Below, piece by piece: positions 8,198 through 49,953 of a stretch of 64,000 nucleotides of DNA (position 1 is its first letter; each line of letters opens with the position of its first letter). Both the position numbers and the translations under genes were made by a program. A model generated the notes under the pieces. That model had not been told where the DNA came from and did not search any database. It saw nothing but the letters and a program-made list of their open reading frames with translations. The DNA comes from Candidatus Martarchaeota archaeon (GTDB taxonomy: Archaea; Thermoproteota; Thermoprotei_A; Marsarchaeales; Marsarchaeaceae): contig JAMDBQ010000010.1 of NCBI GenBank assembly GCA_023487445.1, forward strand, positions 1 to 64,000, in the 5' to 3' direction.

Positions 8198-8730
8198 TAC
8201 TCCACCGCGTAGATGTATACCCCGTCGGAAAACACTCGGGGGTCGTATTGCCTTATATGCGTCGCCTTTTGAATGTTAGCAGCCGTCTGGGAAACCGCCT
8301 CCTTGTCAACACCGGACACTACTACATCTTCTCCGTCTACTTTTACGTCTACCTGCCCTACGATGGCTGCAACTCGCGCTGCTCTCTCGCCTATGAAATT
8401 CTCTATCTTAACCGTGTTCTGGTCAACTTTGATGCTCAGGGGAAAATGTGCATAGACCATTTTGAGACGGTATGTGAACCCCTTTGTGACGCCAGTGATC
8501 ATGTTTCCCAAATGTGCTAGGGTCGTTCCGATCAGCGCTTTTTCTCTGAGTTTCAGATTAGTTGCTTCTACTATGACGCTGGCTCCTTCTGATCGAATAG
8601 CCAACGGTGGAATGTTGATGTCTTTCGAAACCGTTCCCTTGGGTCCCTCGACTGTCACCGTCCTACCATTCACTCGGACGGAAACGCCTTGCGGCACCGT
8701 AATAGCCTCCTGGAGGTGTGGGATACGCAC
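8197..8730 (-). CDS. rpl6: Ribosomal protein uL6
   Basis: VRVNGRTVTVEGPKGTVSKDI; HLGNMITGVTKGFTYRLKMVYAHFPLSI. Confidence 0.94.
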   Translation of the reverse strand: MRIPHLQEAITVPQGVSVRVNGRTVTVEGPKGTVSKDINIPPLAIRSEGASVIVEATNLKLREKALIGTTLAHLGNMITGVTKGFTYRLKMVYAHFPLSIKVDQNTVKIENFIGERAARVAAIVGQVDVKVDGEDVVVSGVDKEAVSQTAANIQKATHIRQYDPRVFSDGVYIYAVE

Positions 8731-40761: not shown

Positions 40762-41075
40762 AGCTCAATTAAGGGGGATAATTTAAATTGCGTCCGAGGC
40801 GTGCTTCCATATAGAACTCGGTTTGCTCACTCCCGCTCGTCTTACAATGTGAATTGACGTGTAAGAGTGGCTTATTAGGCAGGTGCCTTAAGAGTTTCCC
40901 GCTGCGGCTCACTGGCGAAGCGGTTTATGGTTCATTGTAACCATTTCACACGGTCAGGTGCGAATGCCGCATTAGGTGGTTGGGGGTCTTGCTGGAAATG
41001 GGTGGCCCACATGTTGTCTAATTAGTCGGGGCACGGGGCGTATAGGCCAAATCTATACGGGTTCGAGGCGCAATA

Positions 41076-41150
41076 TGGGTCAGGCCGGATTCGAACCGGC
41101 GACCTCCACCGTGTAAGGGTGGCATCCTAACCGGGCTAGACTACTGACCC
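41076..41150 (-). tRNA. tRNA-Val(TAC)
   Basis: GGGTCAG...CCACC-CTTACAC-GGTGG...GGTTCGAATCC...CTGACCCA; anticodon TAC. Confidence 0.93.
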
Positions 41151-41163
41151 AGGTCAAACTGGT

Positions 41164-41454
41164 CTATTTGTATCTAAATCTTTTTAGATATCCGCAGCGA
41201 GAACACTTCCATACACATAGGCCACTCTTTAGTCTGACTTCTACACTGACACCTGGGTACGTTATATATCCACACCTTTTGCACTTAAGCATTCTGAGAC
41301 CTTTTGGAACCTTTTGGTTTGAGTGAACAGCAAGGTTCCACGCCGTATCGAAGGCTGATTCCGCTAAGGCTCTGTTGCTGCTTATGTTTTCGGTCACCAG
41401 TCGCATCAGCCTGTCTAGTTCGAAGCCGATCAGCGTACTTTGGCGATTCTTCAT
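41164..41454 (-). CDS. rnp4: RNase P protein component 4 (Rpp21/Rpr2)
   Basis: C-K-R-C...C-S-R-C zinc ribbon, LKSGLCVWKCSRCGYLKRFRYK. Confidence 0.85.
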   Translation of the reverse strand: MKNRQSTLIGFELDRLMRLVTENISSNRALAESAFDTAWNLAVHSNQKVPKGLRMLKCKRCGYITYPGVSVEVRLKSGLCVWKCSRCGYLKRFRYK

Positions 41455-42746
41455 CTTACCATCTCACCCATTAGGTGGTCAGGAGTGCACCCGGATATAG
41501 TTACCAGTAGCCTCTTTCCCAAAAGCCTCCTAGAATAGGGGAGATAAACCTTGATGTAGTTGTCTAGTCTGGCTTCTAGCCTTGACTGCCCTATACTTGA
41601 CGTCACTAAGCATTCTCTTTGGGAACCAATTAGCCTAGCATTCCTTTCCATTTGAATGTCTCTGGCTACCTGCGCGGCCAACTTACTCCTCATCTTTTTG
41701 GTTTGTTCAGGGATTTGCACAAGTTTTGCCGCAGGCGTGTGCGGTCTGGGAGTAAACCTGAAGACGTGGACTTTATCGAACACAGCAGACTCTATCAGAC
41801 GAATTGTTTCTTCGAAGGCTTCCTCGTCCTCTGTTGGATAGCCGACCATGATGTCGGTGGCAAGCGTGGTGTCCCTTACAGACTGCTTAATTCGTCCTAG
41901 GACCTTAGCCACCTCGAATGGCTCATAGTTCCTAGCCATGGTTGTGACAACCTTAACACTTCCTGATTGTATGGGGATGTGCAGAAACCGGTACATGTTG
42001 TCTGACTCGAATAAACGCGTCATATCATTAAGAAATTGCAAAGTACCCTTCGGATTCATCATCCCTATTCGTAGCTTGTAGTCTCCCTTAACTCTGTCAA
42101 TTATTCCAGCCACAAGTTGTGGCAGCCTCGTCGATGGGGGTGAAAAATAGTCGGCGTTATCCATTGATGAAAGTTGGATTTCCACTGCGCCGTTTTTAAC
42201 TGCGCGGTCGACTGCGTCTATAATCTGCGCAGCGGGTCGTGACCACATGTAAGGTCTAGCGAGCTTAGTTATGCAAAACTTGCAATTACTGGTGCATCCC
42301 TGAGCGATCTTAACTGTGTAAACCAATCCATCCGAGTTTGACGGTTCCAAGCGCTGTGAACCGTATATGACCGAGCCTTGTGCGGCAGTTAACGCGTCAA
42401 CTAATTCGGGGTTGTCTCCCCCAATAAGAAGGGTTGACTGCGGTGCCTCGGAAAGAATCTTGCCCGGCCGGGTGTTTGCTAGGCAGCTGGTAACTACAAC
42501 TCTCTTCTTATCACCGATCAGTTGCTGGATATGGGAGATAATTTTATCCTCAGTTTCGTTCCTCACAGAACAACTGAATATTACGACTGTCTGCGCGTCT
42601 CTTGTGTTAGTGATTCGGAATCCTTTATTCTCTACGTGTTGGCGCGCTGAGTCTGCATCGGCCTTATTCATAGAGCACCCGAAAACCTCGAAGGCGACAG
42701 ATGGCGTGCCGGGCCTGTCCTTGGTGCTAGTGGATCTTGACGCCAT
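41451..42746 (-). CDS. tRNA-t6A37 methylthiotransferase (archaeal e-MtaB/MiaB-like)
   Basis: FEVFGCSMNKADADSARQ; IAQGCTSNCKFCITKLARP. Confidence 0.92.
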   Translation of the reverse strand: MASRSTSTKDRPGTPSVAFEVFGCSMNKADADSARQHVENKGFRITNTRDAQTVVIFSCSVRNETEDKIISHIQQLIGDKKRVVVTSCLANTRPGKILSEAPQSTLLIGGDNPELVDALTAAQGSVIYGSQRLEPSNSDGLVYTVKIAQGCTSNCKFCITKLARPYMWSRPAAQIIDAVDRAVKNGAVEIQLSSMDNADYFSPPSTRLPQLVAGIIDRVKGDYKLRIGMMNPKGTLQFLNDMTRLFESDNMYRFLHIPIQSGSVKVVTTMARNYEPFEVAKVLGRIKQSVRDTTLATDIMVGYPTEDEEAFEETIRLIESAVFDKVHVFRFTPRPHTPAAKLVQIPEQTKKMRSKLAAQVARDIQMERNARLIGSQRECLVTSSIGQSRLEARLDNYIKVYLPYSRRLLGKRLLVTISGCTPDHLMGEMVR

Positions 42747-44601
42747 CGGTGATTTCCCTCATTATAGTGAGAAGGGAGACAGCTCCTTCTTTCTCGGCAG
42801 CTAAAAGCATTCCGTATGACACTACCCCCGCAAACTTCGCGGGCTTAAGGTTTGTCAACACGACAATGGACTTTCCAACAAGCTCTTCAGGGGCATACTG
42901 ATCGCCGATGCTTGAAACTATGGTTCGATGCTCCTCACCAATTCGAATTCTTATTCTTAAGAGCTTTCTTGTGCCACCTATTCTTTCAACGGATTTTACG
43001 TGGGCTACCCTAAGGTCAAACCTGGAAAACTCATCAATGGTTACCTCAGGTGGTGGATTCAACTCCTTGTTAAGCGTATCAACTAACGACTTTACGTTTG
43101 TCTTTGGTGTGTGAATATAGTTTCCAGGAGTCTGTTGTTTCCATTCTATTTTAAGATCTAAGGGGGACAACCACCCTGATCCAGACTCGATCTTTATGGC
43201 TTTATCATATTGTTCAGAAAGATACGGAAGTATTGGCTGGGCTGAGATGAGTAGGCTTGCAGCCACCCTCGTGGACAAATGTGTAATTTTAGCCGCCCGG
43301 GCTGGATCGCTCCTCATTACCGTCCACGGTGCACTAGTTATAAAGTAATCCATCAGTCGCTGCGCCAGGCCGACTAGGTTAGCTAACATCGCTGAAAATT
43401 CGGCAGAAAGGCCTTTTTCCCTTGAGGAAGTGAGGAGAGTCGTTGCTTCATTTACTAACCTGGTATCCGGTCCCTCGGTTAGAGATTCGACGGAAATCGC
43501 AGGGAGCCCCGCGGGGAATTTTGATTGCGCAAACTGAAGCACACGTGCAATAGGTGCTCCTATCTTCTCTTGTATATCAAGCGCTGCTTCAAGATGCTCA
43601 ATGGTTTCGCTGTGTGGGGCGATAAGCGAGGCAACCATAATGTGGTCAGGGCTTAGATGGCTACATAGATTTGTCAGTTTTGCATCTATTAGTGGCCTAG
43701 GTGGCAATGATTTAGCCGCTTGGAAGACGCGAATGCGGCCATAGAATCCGGCTGTTTCTAGAATAGCTGGTAAGATGCCGTAAGCTAGATTTGTTGGTGT
43801 TCGATGAGCGTGGTAAACAAATTCGTCTATGTTATGATCTGAGGCAAGGGTATAGGAAGTGTAGGCTGAAAGGAGGTAGCCAAAGTACTCGTTTGAATGG
43901 AATGTGTTACCGGAGTCGCGGAAGCCTATTGGTAATAGGGATTCTGCCATATCGCCGGCGGTTAACGATTCATGGTAGTTGACTACAGGTGTGGTGGTGG
44001 GTTTAGCACTCTGAAGGTTGTTAGTTACCATGACTATTCTCACGGGGTGGCGGGTGGTAGTGCCCCCACATATGTTACAGTAAACATACGGGGAATTCGA
44101 AGATACCGGTGTTCCGCATCTGGTGCATCTGGTATTGTAATCGAGGACTAAGCGTTCTCCACAGCTCCCGCAGGCCACGCTCCCCAGTTCCTTTAGGATA
44201 AATGTCTTGTCGGAGTCGCAATAGGGAATGGTTGAAGCCTGTTCAGAGACTAATCCCTTTGAGGCAAGGCTGGCTAGAACGTTACCCATGTCTTTTTCTC
44301 GCTCAGCGTAATCCTGCTCCAGAACCACTGCAGAGCCTAACATAAGTAGCTCCAACGCGCGTTGTATACTGGCTGTAACCTCCCCGCAGATTTCATCAAT
44401 ACTAATGCCTGACTTGATAGCTTCTAAGCGTATCAGCGAACTCTCTGGTAGACAGCTGGCTACGAAATGTGGGTGTGTGTCCCTGTGTGTTTGAAAGAAC
44501 CTAGAGTGGACTGCGGCAGGAATAAGTGCTTCACACGCATCCCCGAAGGTAAGCGCCCCCGCCTTCCTCACTGGCTCAGGAAAGATTAGTGATGACCCCA
44601 T
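42727..44601 (-). CDS. Methionyl-tRNA synthetase-like protein with degenerate catalytic motifs and C-terminal EMAPII/Trbp111 tRNA-binding domain
   Basis: Zn knuckles CGSC/CTRC/CNIC, MetRS-like spacing, C-terminal DEFSRFDLRVAHVKSVERI...VVLTNLKPAKFAGVVSYGMLLAA; HIGH, DEHG and KMSKS not found. Confidence 0.75.
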   Translation of the reverse strand: MGSSLIFPEPVRKAGALTFGDACEALIPAAVHSRFFQTHRDTHPHFVASCLPESSLIRLEAIKSGISIDEICGEVTASIQRALELLMLGSAVVLEQDYAEREKDMGNVLASLASKGLVSEQASTIPYCDSDKTFILKELGSVACGSCGERLVLDYNTRCTRCGTPVSSNSPYVYCNICGGTTTRHPVRIVMVTNNLQSAKPTTTPVVNYHESLTAGDMAESLLPIGFRDSGNTFHSNEYFGYLLSAYTSYTLASDHNIDEFVYHAHRTPTNLAYGILPAILETAGFYGRIRVFQAAKSLPPRPLIDAKLTNLCSHLSPDHIMVASLIAPHSETIEHLEAALDIQEKIGAPIARVLQFAQSKFPAGLPAISVESLTEGPDTRLVNEATTLLTSSREKGLSAEFSAMLANLVGLAQRLMDYFITSAPWTVMRSDPARAAKITHLSTRVAASLLISAQPILPYLSEQYDKAIKIESGSGWLSPLDLKIEWKQQTPGNYIHTPKTNVKSLVDTLNKELNPPPEVTIDEFSRFDLRVAHVKSVERIGGTRKLLRIRIRIGEEHRTIVSSIGDQYAPEELVGKSIVVLTNLKPAKFAGVVSYGMLLAAEKEGAVSLLTIMREITDGVKIH

Positions 44602-44689: not shown

Positions 44690-46012
44690 TTGTTCAAGTT
44701 GGTGCTAATAAGCGGAGCCTACGGTGTCGACCCAGTTAATGGATGGGTTAGGAAGAATTGGTCGATACTTGTGGAAGGGTCTGAAATAGTTGACGCTGGC
44801 GAACGTGGTTTGATGCGGACGAGGTATCCCTCTGAAGAAGAGCATCACGGTAAGAGAACTTTGCTGATGCCTGCCCTAGTAAACTGCCACACTCATCTTC
44901 CTATGGTTCTACTTAGATCCGCGAGCTCTCAGCTCACAATGGAAAGATGGTTTTCCGACGTGGTATATCCCAGAGAAAAAATACTTAGGAGTAATCCTGA
45001 ACTGGTCAAGCTGGGCTCAAAGGTTGCCTTAGCCGAGATGGTTCTGGAGGGTGTAGGTGCAGTGGTTGACATGTACTTTATGGAGGAGCAAGTTGTTCAG
45101 GCTGGGCTGGAAATTGGCGTAAAAGGCGTCTATACTTATGGACTAGCAGATGTCGGAGATGAATCAAAAATGCGTTCTGAACTAAACTCTGCAAAGTCCC
45201 TTTTCGGGATGATTAGACGCCTCGGCAAGAAGTCTGTGAAAACTGCGATCGCTCCCCATGCAATATATACTTGTTCACCGTCGCTTTTGAAGGAAGCGTC
45301 TAGATTGGCTGATGAGTTATCACTTCCTGTCCACATCCATCTAGCTGAGCGCTCGGATGAGCTAAAACTTGTTGAAAAAATGTACAACGTGCGGGCGTCT
45401 TCCTACAGCTCGTATTTAGACTCGGTTGGACTAATGAGAAGTAGTCTGTTGGGGTTTCACGGGACGCAGTTGACGCAGGAAGACATAAGTCGGTTGGGGT
45501 CAGTGGGAGCAGGCGTTGTAGCCAACCCCACTAGCAATTTGAGGCTGGGGAATGGTATCTCTCCTGTGAGTTTGTTTGCCAAGTACGGAGTCCTCCGCGG
45601 TTTTGGCACGGATGGTGCTTGTTCAAATGATGAACAATCAGTGCTGCGAGAATTAAAGATGGCTGCTTTACTATCAACCGTTCAAGGAAGTGCAGGCTTA
45701 ACAGAGTGGGAGATTTTGCGCGCAGCGGTTTCACCCATGACCTTCCTATTCGGTGACAGGGTTGGATTAGAGAGGGGGTGTGTGGCTAACATAGCCTTGT
45801 ACGAAATGGATATAGGATTTAACGCTGAATCAAATATACCTAGGGGCATCATATACTCCCCTAGTGGACTCAGGTGTACCCACACGATGATTGACGGCAG
45901 GTTTCTCGTTAGGGATGGCTCCCTCACCGATATATCCACTGATGAGCTTATGAGTGACTACTCTAAGGCGGTGAGTATCATTGAAAGCAAGGTTGGGAGT
46001 GAACAGCTATGA
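44690..46012 (+). CDS. Amidohydrolase, MTA/SAH deaminase-like
   Basis: MPALVNCHTHLPM; PHAIYTCSP; HIHLAE; GTDGACSND. Confidence 0.87.
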   Translation: MFKLVLISGAYGVDPVNGWVRKNWSILVEGSEIVDAGERGLMRTRYPSEEEHHGKRTLLMPALVNCHTHLPMVLLRSASSQLTMERWFSDVVYPREKILRSNPELVKLGSKVALAEMVLEGVGAVVDMYFMEEQVVQAGLEIGVKGVYTYGLADVGDESKMRSELNSAKSLFGMIRRLGKKSVKTAIAPHAIYTCSPSLLKEASRLADELSLPVHIHLAERSDELKLVEKMYNVRASSYSSYLDSVGLMRSSLLGFHGTQLTQEDISRLGSVGAGVVANPTSNLRLGNGISPVSLFAKYGVLRGFGTDGACSNDEQSVLRELKMAALLSTVQGSAGLTEWEILRAAVSPMTFLFGDRVGLERGCVANIALYEMDIGFNAESNIPRGIIYSPSGLRCTHTMIDGRFLVRDGSLTDISTDELMSDYSKAVSIIESKVGSEQL

Positions 46013-47208
46013 GTAGTGGGATACAGAAGATAGAGTGGGCTTCTGGTTTTATGTCCACTTTGAACACTATTTCGGAAGAAGCGGTTCTAAGGCAGGCGTT
46101 TCAGGGTTTGCGTGTGGGGCTGGTTCTCCATATCGAAGCTAAAACCGCTGTTCTTGCCTCCAGGATACAACAGGCCGGGGCTGAAGTATACGTTGCCGCC
46201 AGTAACCCCCTCACCACCCAAGACGACATAGTGGAGGCTTTGAGGTCAAAAGTGACGGCGGTGTGGGCGAGAAGAGGCGAAGACTCGGACGAATATATTT
46301 CCTCAATAAGGAACGTACTGGCTGCTAAACCTGAATTTATTATCGATGATGGTGCTGACTGTATTGTGGAATCACATAGAATCGGACTAGGCTCTGTACG
46401 AGGAGCTTCTGAAGAAACTACAACAGGAATAAACCGCGTTAAGGCAATGGAGAAGAAAAAGGCATTGAAGTATCCCGTGGTGGCTCTCAACGATGCACTA
46501 ACCAAGCACCTGTTCGACAATAGATATGGGACGGGCCAATCCGCTCTCGACGCGTTTATGAGGACTACCAACTTGCTTGTAGCAGGAAGGGTGGTTTTAG
46601 TCGTCGGGTTTGGCTGGGTGGGGCGTGGAATTGCTGAACGACTGCGGGGTATGGGTGCAAGGGTCCTAGTTTCTGAGGTAGATCCCGTCAGAGCCATCGA
46701 GGCATACATGGAAGGATTTGAGGTTCTATCCACGCTCCGCGGTGTAAAGATTGCAGATGTCGTGCTTACAGCGACGGGCTGCATCAAAGCCATAACAGCA
46801 AGCCACTTCAAAGCGGCGAAGGACGGTGTGATAATGGCCAATGCAGGGCATTTCAATGTTGAGATCGACGTCCAACACCTTGAAGAGAAAGCAGGAGGGA
46901 AGAGGCTTGTAAGACCCAATGTGGTGGAGTATAACTACAACGGAAAACGCCTATACGTGATTTCTGAAGGACGACTCCTAAACATTGCTGCAGCCGATGG
47001 CCATCCTATTGACGTCATGGATATGAGTTTCGCAGGCCAGTTCTGTGCTCTTCAATATTTGATTGAGAAAGGAGATGTGCTGGGTTCTAGACTTGTTTAT
47101 CTACCACGCCGAAAAGATTTGGCCATCGCAAAAGCTTTCCTCAGAGGGCATGGACTGAAAATAGATCGTCTATCTCGGCAACAGAGGGATTACTTAGGTT
47201 CCTTCTAG
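46009..47208 (+). CDS. ahcY: S-adenosylhomocysteine hydrolase
   Basis: NDALTKHLFDNRYGTGQSALDAFMRTTNLLVAGRVVLVVGFGWVGRGIAERLRGMGARV. Confidence 0.95.
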   Translation: MSSGIQKIEWASGFMSTLNTISEEAVLRQAFQGLRVGLVLHIEAKTAVLASRIQQAGAEVYVAASNPLTTQDDIVEALRSKVTAVWARRGEDSDEYISSIRNVLAAKPEFIIDDGADCIVESHRIGLGSVRGASEETTTGINRVKAMEKKKALKYPVVALNDALTKHLFDNRYGTGQSALDAFMRTTNLLVAGRVVLVVGFGWVGRGIAERLRGMGARVLVSEVDPVRAIEAYMEGFEVLSTLRGVKIADVVLTATGCIKAITASHFKAAKDGVIMANAGHFNVEIDVQHLEEKAGGKRLVRPNVVEYNYNGKRLYVISEGRLLNIAAADGHPIDVMDMSFAGQFCALQYLIEKGDVLGSRLVYLPRRKDLAIAKAFLRGHGLKIDRLSRQQRDYLGSF

Positions 47209-49853: not shown

Positions 49854-49953
49854 GCCGGGGTGCCCGAGTGGTTAAGGGAATGGCCTTGAGTGACGAAATT
49901 CAAGTTAGCCATCGTCCTTCATGGACTCGCGGGTTCGAATCCCGTCCCCGGCG
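49854..49953 (+). tRNA. tRNA-Ser(TGA) with 16-nt intron at 37/38 (49891-49906)
   Basis: GCCGGGG/CCCCGGC acceptor; ATGGC/GCCAT anticodon stem; BHB central helix CTTG/CAAG, bulges AGT and TTA; long variable arm CGTCCTTCATGGACTCG. Confidence 0.92.

Follow-up and report, generated by a model that had tools for sequence, protein, structure and literature searches.

The window analysed here, a stretch of 64,000 nucleotides, comes from a metagenome-assembled genome of 603 kb in 22 contigs (71% complete, 0.3% contamination; G000 below). On its minus strand lies an operon whose first gene encodes a protein with the layout of methionyl-tRNA synthetase (MetRS), which we call pseudo-MetRS, followed by two genes for predicted tRNA-processing proteins. 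The features of the locus are as follows.

41075..41151 (-): tRNA-Val (TAC), just 3' of the operon
41164..41454 (-): RNase P subunit Rpr2/Rpp21 homologue, operon gene 3 (PF04032 cut-off passed)
41451..42746 (-): MiaB-like-B, predicted tRNA t6A37 methylthiotransferase (TIGR01578, 325 vs 314.7 bits)
42727..44601 (-): pseudo-MetRS, 624 aa, MetRS fold predicted, without the catalytic motifs but with the C-terminal tRNA-binding OB domain
44539..44550 (-): HIGH position, reading TFGD (LTFGD in the alignment), residues 18-21
44440..44460 (-): (G)TDEHG position, reading ASCLPES, residues 48-54 (alignment)
44068..44220 (-): zinc-knuckle region, C128, C144/147, C159/162 and C175/178 (alignment)
43699..43719 (-): KMSKS position, reading AKSLPPR, about residues 295-301 (alignment, local register uncertain)
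43204..43599 (-): anticodon-binding helix bundle, residues 335-466 (Pfam, alignment, structure model)
42730..43044 (-): C-terminal Trbp111/EMAPII-like OB domain, residues 520-624 (Pfam, model pLDDT about 93, 65% identity to the G004 orthologue)

The pseudo-MetRS reading frame runs uninterrupted for 624 codons from an ATG at 44601 to a stop at 42727, and its end is overlapped by 20 nt by the MiaB-like-B gene. The identities that the initial annotation gave to the two neighbouring genes are borne out by the profile scores. Two further observations concern other parts of the window. An amidohydrolase gene of the MTA/SAH deaminase type, 44690-46012 (+), overlaps an adenosylhomocysteinase homologue, 46009-47208 (+), and the two could possibly form a deaminate-then-hydrolyse route for S-adenosylhomocysteine. 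A tRNA gene at 49854-49953 (+; Rfam 47.8 bits), in which ARAGORN reads a two-base anticodon, probably contains an intron because it is 100 nt long.

Profile searches separate the two ends of pseudo-MetRS. The C-terminal domain is recognized without difficulty by Pfam (tRNA_bind, PF01588, residues 530-621, 7.6e-23; 80.9 bits vs a cut-off of 27) and passes the C-terminal-domain model TIGR00399 (119.2 bits vs a cut-off of 116.65). The synthetase body gives only weak Pfam matches (tRNA-synt_1g, residues 19-183, 2.3e-8; Anticodon_3, 4.9e-6) and does not reach the cut-offs of the NCBIfam MetRS models (NF001100, 163/587 bits; TIGR00398, 56/336 bits). We read the motifs as columns of a 36-sequence alignment of pseudo-MetRS and 35 other MetRS-type proteins, and this returned the same coordinates and the same replacements at the HIGH, DEHG and KMSKS positions as the initial annotation. 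These three signatures of a catalytic MetRS are absent from the protein, WGVP and VWFDA are likewise gone, and the second half of the Rossmann domain, about residues 195-305, is shortened. Pseudo-MetRS is thus presumably devoid of aminoacylation activity. The zinc region holds three CxxC motifs and a lone C128, rather than the four CxxC motifs counted earlier; all seven cysteines are common to the G000 and G004 orthologues despite 18% identity in this region. Anticodon-binding helices had also been proposed, and the bundle does retain R353 and W426, which we take to be E. coli R395 and W461, while an alanine (A349) occupies the position equivalent to N391. N391 is among the residues known to read anticodon C34.

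The source genome belongs to a family of hot-spring archaea in an order called Marsarchaeales in GTDB and Tardisphaerales elsewhere (PMC12542729). We compared it with the family genomes G001-G005, among them Candidatus Marsarchaeota G1 BE_D (G001) and G2 ECH_B_1 (G004, 93% complete). A MetRS or pseudo-MetRS gene followed by MiaB-like-B and Rpp21 occurs in 5/5 family genomes with an intact locus (G000, G001, G003, G004, G005); in G002 (78% complete) only the 5' part of the pseudo-MetRS gene is present, at a contig end. This shared order identifies pseudo-MetRS as the positional orthologue of the operon MetRS of the family, and synteny settles its origin as an intact family MetRS ablated in place. 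The full-length tree leaves both ablated proteins, whose terminal branches measure 5.25 and 2.91 changes per column, unplaced and does not reject a single clade of the five operon copies (p-AU 0.50). In a tree of the C-domain only, both ablated copies group with the G003 and G005 operon copies (97/92), and these lie near G001.

The operon copies form a series. In G001 the operon copy is the single MetRS found and every motif is intact. The G005 copy has HIDR and RMSES, the G003 copy has YIGR and DEHC and has lost the C34-reading asparagine, and on these early signs of erosion both are probably already impaired; they (G003, L067 7401-9461; G005, L068 6975-9035) would be annotated as ordinary MetRS. 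In G004, G002 and G000 the motifs are gone wherever the sequence covers them, so that the operon MetRS is ablated in two genera. The C34-reading asparagine is missing from 3/5 operon copies, and this repeated loss argues against a tRNA-Met-specific job for the predicted anticodon domain.

A canonical MetRS was found elsewhere in the source assembly (G000:C6:8052-9230, E = 7e-139), with motifs HLGN, SDHHG and KFSKS and without a C-terminal domain. The initial annotation had proposed a search for such an enzyme and had named the lack of any other MetRS, together with aminoacylation by this protein, as an argument against itself; this main objection does not apply here. Short MetRS with intact motifs and no C-domain also occur in G003, G004 and G005; none was found in G002 (78% complete). 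Hence 4/4 genomes with an eroded or ablated operon copy (G000, G003, G004, G005) also have a short MetRS, and whether a genome has a second MetRS without a C-domain matches whether its operon copy has decayed in 5/5 genomes. Misassembly or contamination was rejected as the source of the second MetRS, given the low contamination of the assembly (0.3%) and the 63% identity between the G000 short MetRS and that of G004, from the same family. The short MetRS of G000 and G004 fall inside the Thermoproteota type (support 100/99, full-length tree), to which the operon type does not belong; we therefore rejected a recent duplication of a single MetRS gene. The short MetRS of G003 (L071 4725-6407) and G005 (L072 6216-7892), with HLGH, SDDFG and KLSKS, are of uncertain origin. 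With each other they share about 95% identity, with the G000 and G004 short MetRS only 31-35%, and the other intact MetRS in the comparison are similarly distant (about 31-40%). With the short MetRS drawn from two lineages, catalysis appears to have been displaced by two unrelated partners.

The C-domain itself is kept at a nearly constant count. PF01588 has exactly one match in 9/10 genomes of the order and none in G002; in the pseudo-MetRS family the match is always on the operon copy, and the profile search of the ten genomes found no free-standing PF01588 protein in family genomes. At 71% completeness G000 could be missing such a protein, but G004, at 93%, looks alike. In the sister family, G008 encodes a 612-aa MetRS (L075 6622-8457) with tRNA_bind in an overlapping 126-aa ORF (8307-8684), either a natural split or an assembly frameshift. 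The matches listed for 200 Thermoproteota genomes show the C-domain, with few exceptions, in one of two settings: encoded alone by an ORF of about 110-130 aa, which accompanies a short MetRS, or within a full-length MetRS of about 666-712 aa. Among these same matches only a 634-aa ORF, that of G000, has the C-domain on a body that is not strongly MetRS-like, and no other ablated MetRS with a C-domain is present.

Divergence along the protein is very uneven. The ablated orthologues of G000 and G004 are most alike in the OB domain (identity 0.65). The helix bundle follows at 0.25, the zinc region and the second Rossmann half are both at 0.18, and the N-terminal Rossmann domain is at 0.14. The OB domains of the ablated copies are 0.52-0.54 identical to that of G001, below their mutual value. 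The G003 or G005 operon copy differs from G001 evenly along its length (identity 0.49-0.61). Compared over 250 codons in the degenerate N-half, the G004 and G002 orthologues give a dN/dS of 0.276 (CI 0.168-0.452), with 0/1000 resamples at or above 1, against values of 0.12, 0.12 and 0.46 for three neighbouring genes. The degenerate N-half is therefore under purifying selection, as measured on these two orthologues rather than on the G000 gene. For the G003/G005 (g4) pair, dN/dS is 0.20 in the operon copy and 0.047 over the catalytic region of the short enzyme. A neutrally evolving frame should have gathered about 20 stops by 0.5 substitutions per site, yet this one is open. A pseudogene is ruled out by the open frames in two genera, by dN/dS and by the retained cysteines, and from these sequence data we regard the window gene as a catalytically ablated MetRS that is real and under selection.

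AlphaFold2 models the window protein with a mean pLDDT of 70.8, about 88 in the helix bundle and about 93 in the OB domain, fair in the first half and poor over residues 195-305. Its top PDB matches are MetRS, led by Pyrococcus abyssi 1rqg (E = 1.5e-21, TM 0.61), and these, together with the Pfam and NCBIfam matches, support the MetRS layout with a C-terminal OB fold first proposed from the sequence. The G004 orthologue is modelled at pLDDT 85.9 and likewise has MetRS structures as its top matches (1rqg, E = 1.9e-33, TM 0.71), so that the ablated body is predicted to retain the MetRS fold, at least in G004.

We propose that the ancestor of the Marsarchaeota family had an ordinary full-length MetRS as operon gene 1, ahead of the t6A-methylthiotransferase and Rpp21, and that a second, short MetRS without a C-domain took over methionylation. 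The operon copy would then have lost its active site and been retained for its Trbp111/EMAPII OB domain, of which no second example was found in the genome and which would replace the Trbp111-like protein that most Thermoproteota encode separately. In this account the short MetRS would do the charging and pseudo-MetRS would bind the tRNA for it as a subunit in trans; the OB domain would grip the tRNA, and the inactive body, whose zinc cysteines and helix bundle are retained, would be a scaffold or docking surface. By analogy with known systems and from the sequence comparisons, we regard this trans-subunit reading as the best supported and give it roughly even chances, the physical partnership and the tRNA binding being its inferred part. 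The lost C34-reading asparagine is compatible with anticodon recognition by the partner. Several points count against the reading. The archaeal MetRS C-domain is a homodimerisation module (PMC7175363) and would pair pseudo-MetRS with itself; the short MetRS has no obvious docking site; a body of about 500 residues need not have been kept if the OB domain alone mattered, and most Thermoproteota manage with a bare 110-aa protein; and the same partner must suit two short-MetRS lineages. A bolder version is correspondingly more tentative, and we lean somewhat against it: a two-protein archaeal MetRS in which the ablated full-length MetRS is the obligate tRNA-binding subunit of two unrelated catalytic partners across genera, a counterpart of SLIMP/SerRS2α with its intermediates surviving.

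Three other explanations bear on the same data. Pseudo-MetRS might be an independent tRNA chaperone or adaptor that presents tRNAs to the t6A37 methylthiotransferase and RNase P, the short MetRS not being involved. The operon order retained in 5/5 intact loci favours this role, and the loss of the asparagine from three of the five operon copies would suit a binder less specific for tRNA-Met. But the same order is found in G001, whose operon MetRS is intact and the sole one found, so the operon is older than the loss of catalysis; moreover, sister family f2 has methylthiotransferase and Rpp21 homologues without a MetRS gene likewise adjoining them, and we consider the role unlikely. The initial annotation had suggested a tRNA-Met chaperone, an initiation factor or a regulator. 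A pseudo-synthetase with RNA-binding modules in a tRNA-processing operon is what our data describe, and nothing in them favours an initiation factor or a regulator.

Alternatively, the protein would be a relic in which the OB domain alone still matters, substituting for free Trbp111, while the 500 residues ahead of it are inert and on their way out. The great length of the two terminal branches (5.25 and 2.91 changes per column), the 14-18% identity of the front domains and the low-confidence residues 195-305 of the G000 model are what such decay would produce. Against this stand a dN/dS of 0.28 in the N-half with 0/1000 resamples at or above 1, retention of 7/7 zinc-region cysteines against an 18% background, a G004 copy modelled confidently as a full MetRS (pLDDT 85.9; 1rqg, E = 1.9e-33) and a frame that is open at a divergence where neutrality predicts about 20 stops, which make a relic rather improbable. 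MetRS-fold enzymes with other substrates are known, such as PyrN (PDB 9l8v, a fold match here), and a retargeted ligase activating a different amino acid or substrate could have been the outcome of an altered active site. HIGH, DEHG, WGVP, VWFDA and KMSKS are all gone, however, with replacements that differ between the two ablated orthologues and no new motif common to them, and G000 has a shortened second Rossmann half; we give this explanation hardly any weight.

Synthetases rank among the most conserved enzymes, and to our knowledge there are few cases of a dead tRNA-binding copy paired with a live catalytic copy, the best-studied being in animal mitochondria. Here intact, eroding and ablated stages are visible at one conserved locus in close relatives. 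These stages, together with the 5/5 agreement between decay and a second MetRS, allow a direct test, on proteins of two or three genera, of how a synthetase can give up catalysis and still be under selection. Annotation by best hit would label pseudo-MetRS as MetRS. We found no earlier report of an archaeal ablated MetRS in the open-licence literature.

Full-length MetRS with a C-domain, as in P. abyssi (1rqg) and Marsarchaeota G1 BE_D, shares the domain order and predicted fold of pseudo-MetRS, and the latter also its syntenic position, but pseudo-MetRS lacks the catalytic motifs and the C34-reading asparagine. Free Trbp111-like proteins exist (PMC7175363), and Aquifex Trbp111 and Aeropyrum Trbp (free Trbp111/MetRS beta) likewise carry the OB domain where the genome's MetRS is without one; these stand alone at about 110-130 aa, whereas here the domain is joined to a complete but ablated MetRS. 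LeuRS-I of Sulfolobaceae is also a divergent second synthetase retained in archaea without a normal charging role (PMC9437257), but it still makes leucyl-adenylate, whereas pseudo-MetRS has lost the adenylation site. The closest parallel is SLIMP/SerRS2α, in which the ablated subunit provides the tRNA-binding domain and its coiled coil is needed for charging (PMC10570016). There as here, the ablated copy holds the tRNA-binding domain, the catalytic copy lacks it, and the ablated copy evolves fast yet is retained; an ablated active site and a candidate catalytic partner without a tRNA-binding domain were found in the same genome. The systems differ in that SLIMP belongs to an animal mitochondrial class II SerRS and pseudo-MetRS to archaeal class I MetRS, and in that the putative catalytic partners here are not sister paralogues but come from two other MetRS lineages, in a heteromer that we infer. 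The ablated MetRS would be a new variant within the known pseudo-synthetase subunits.
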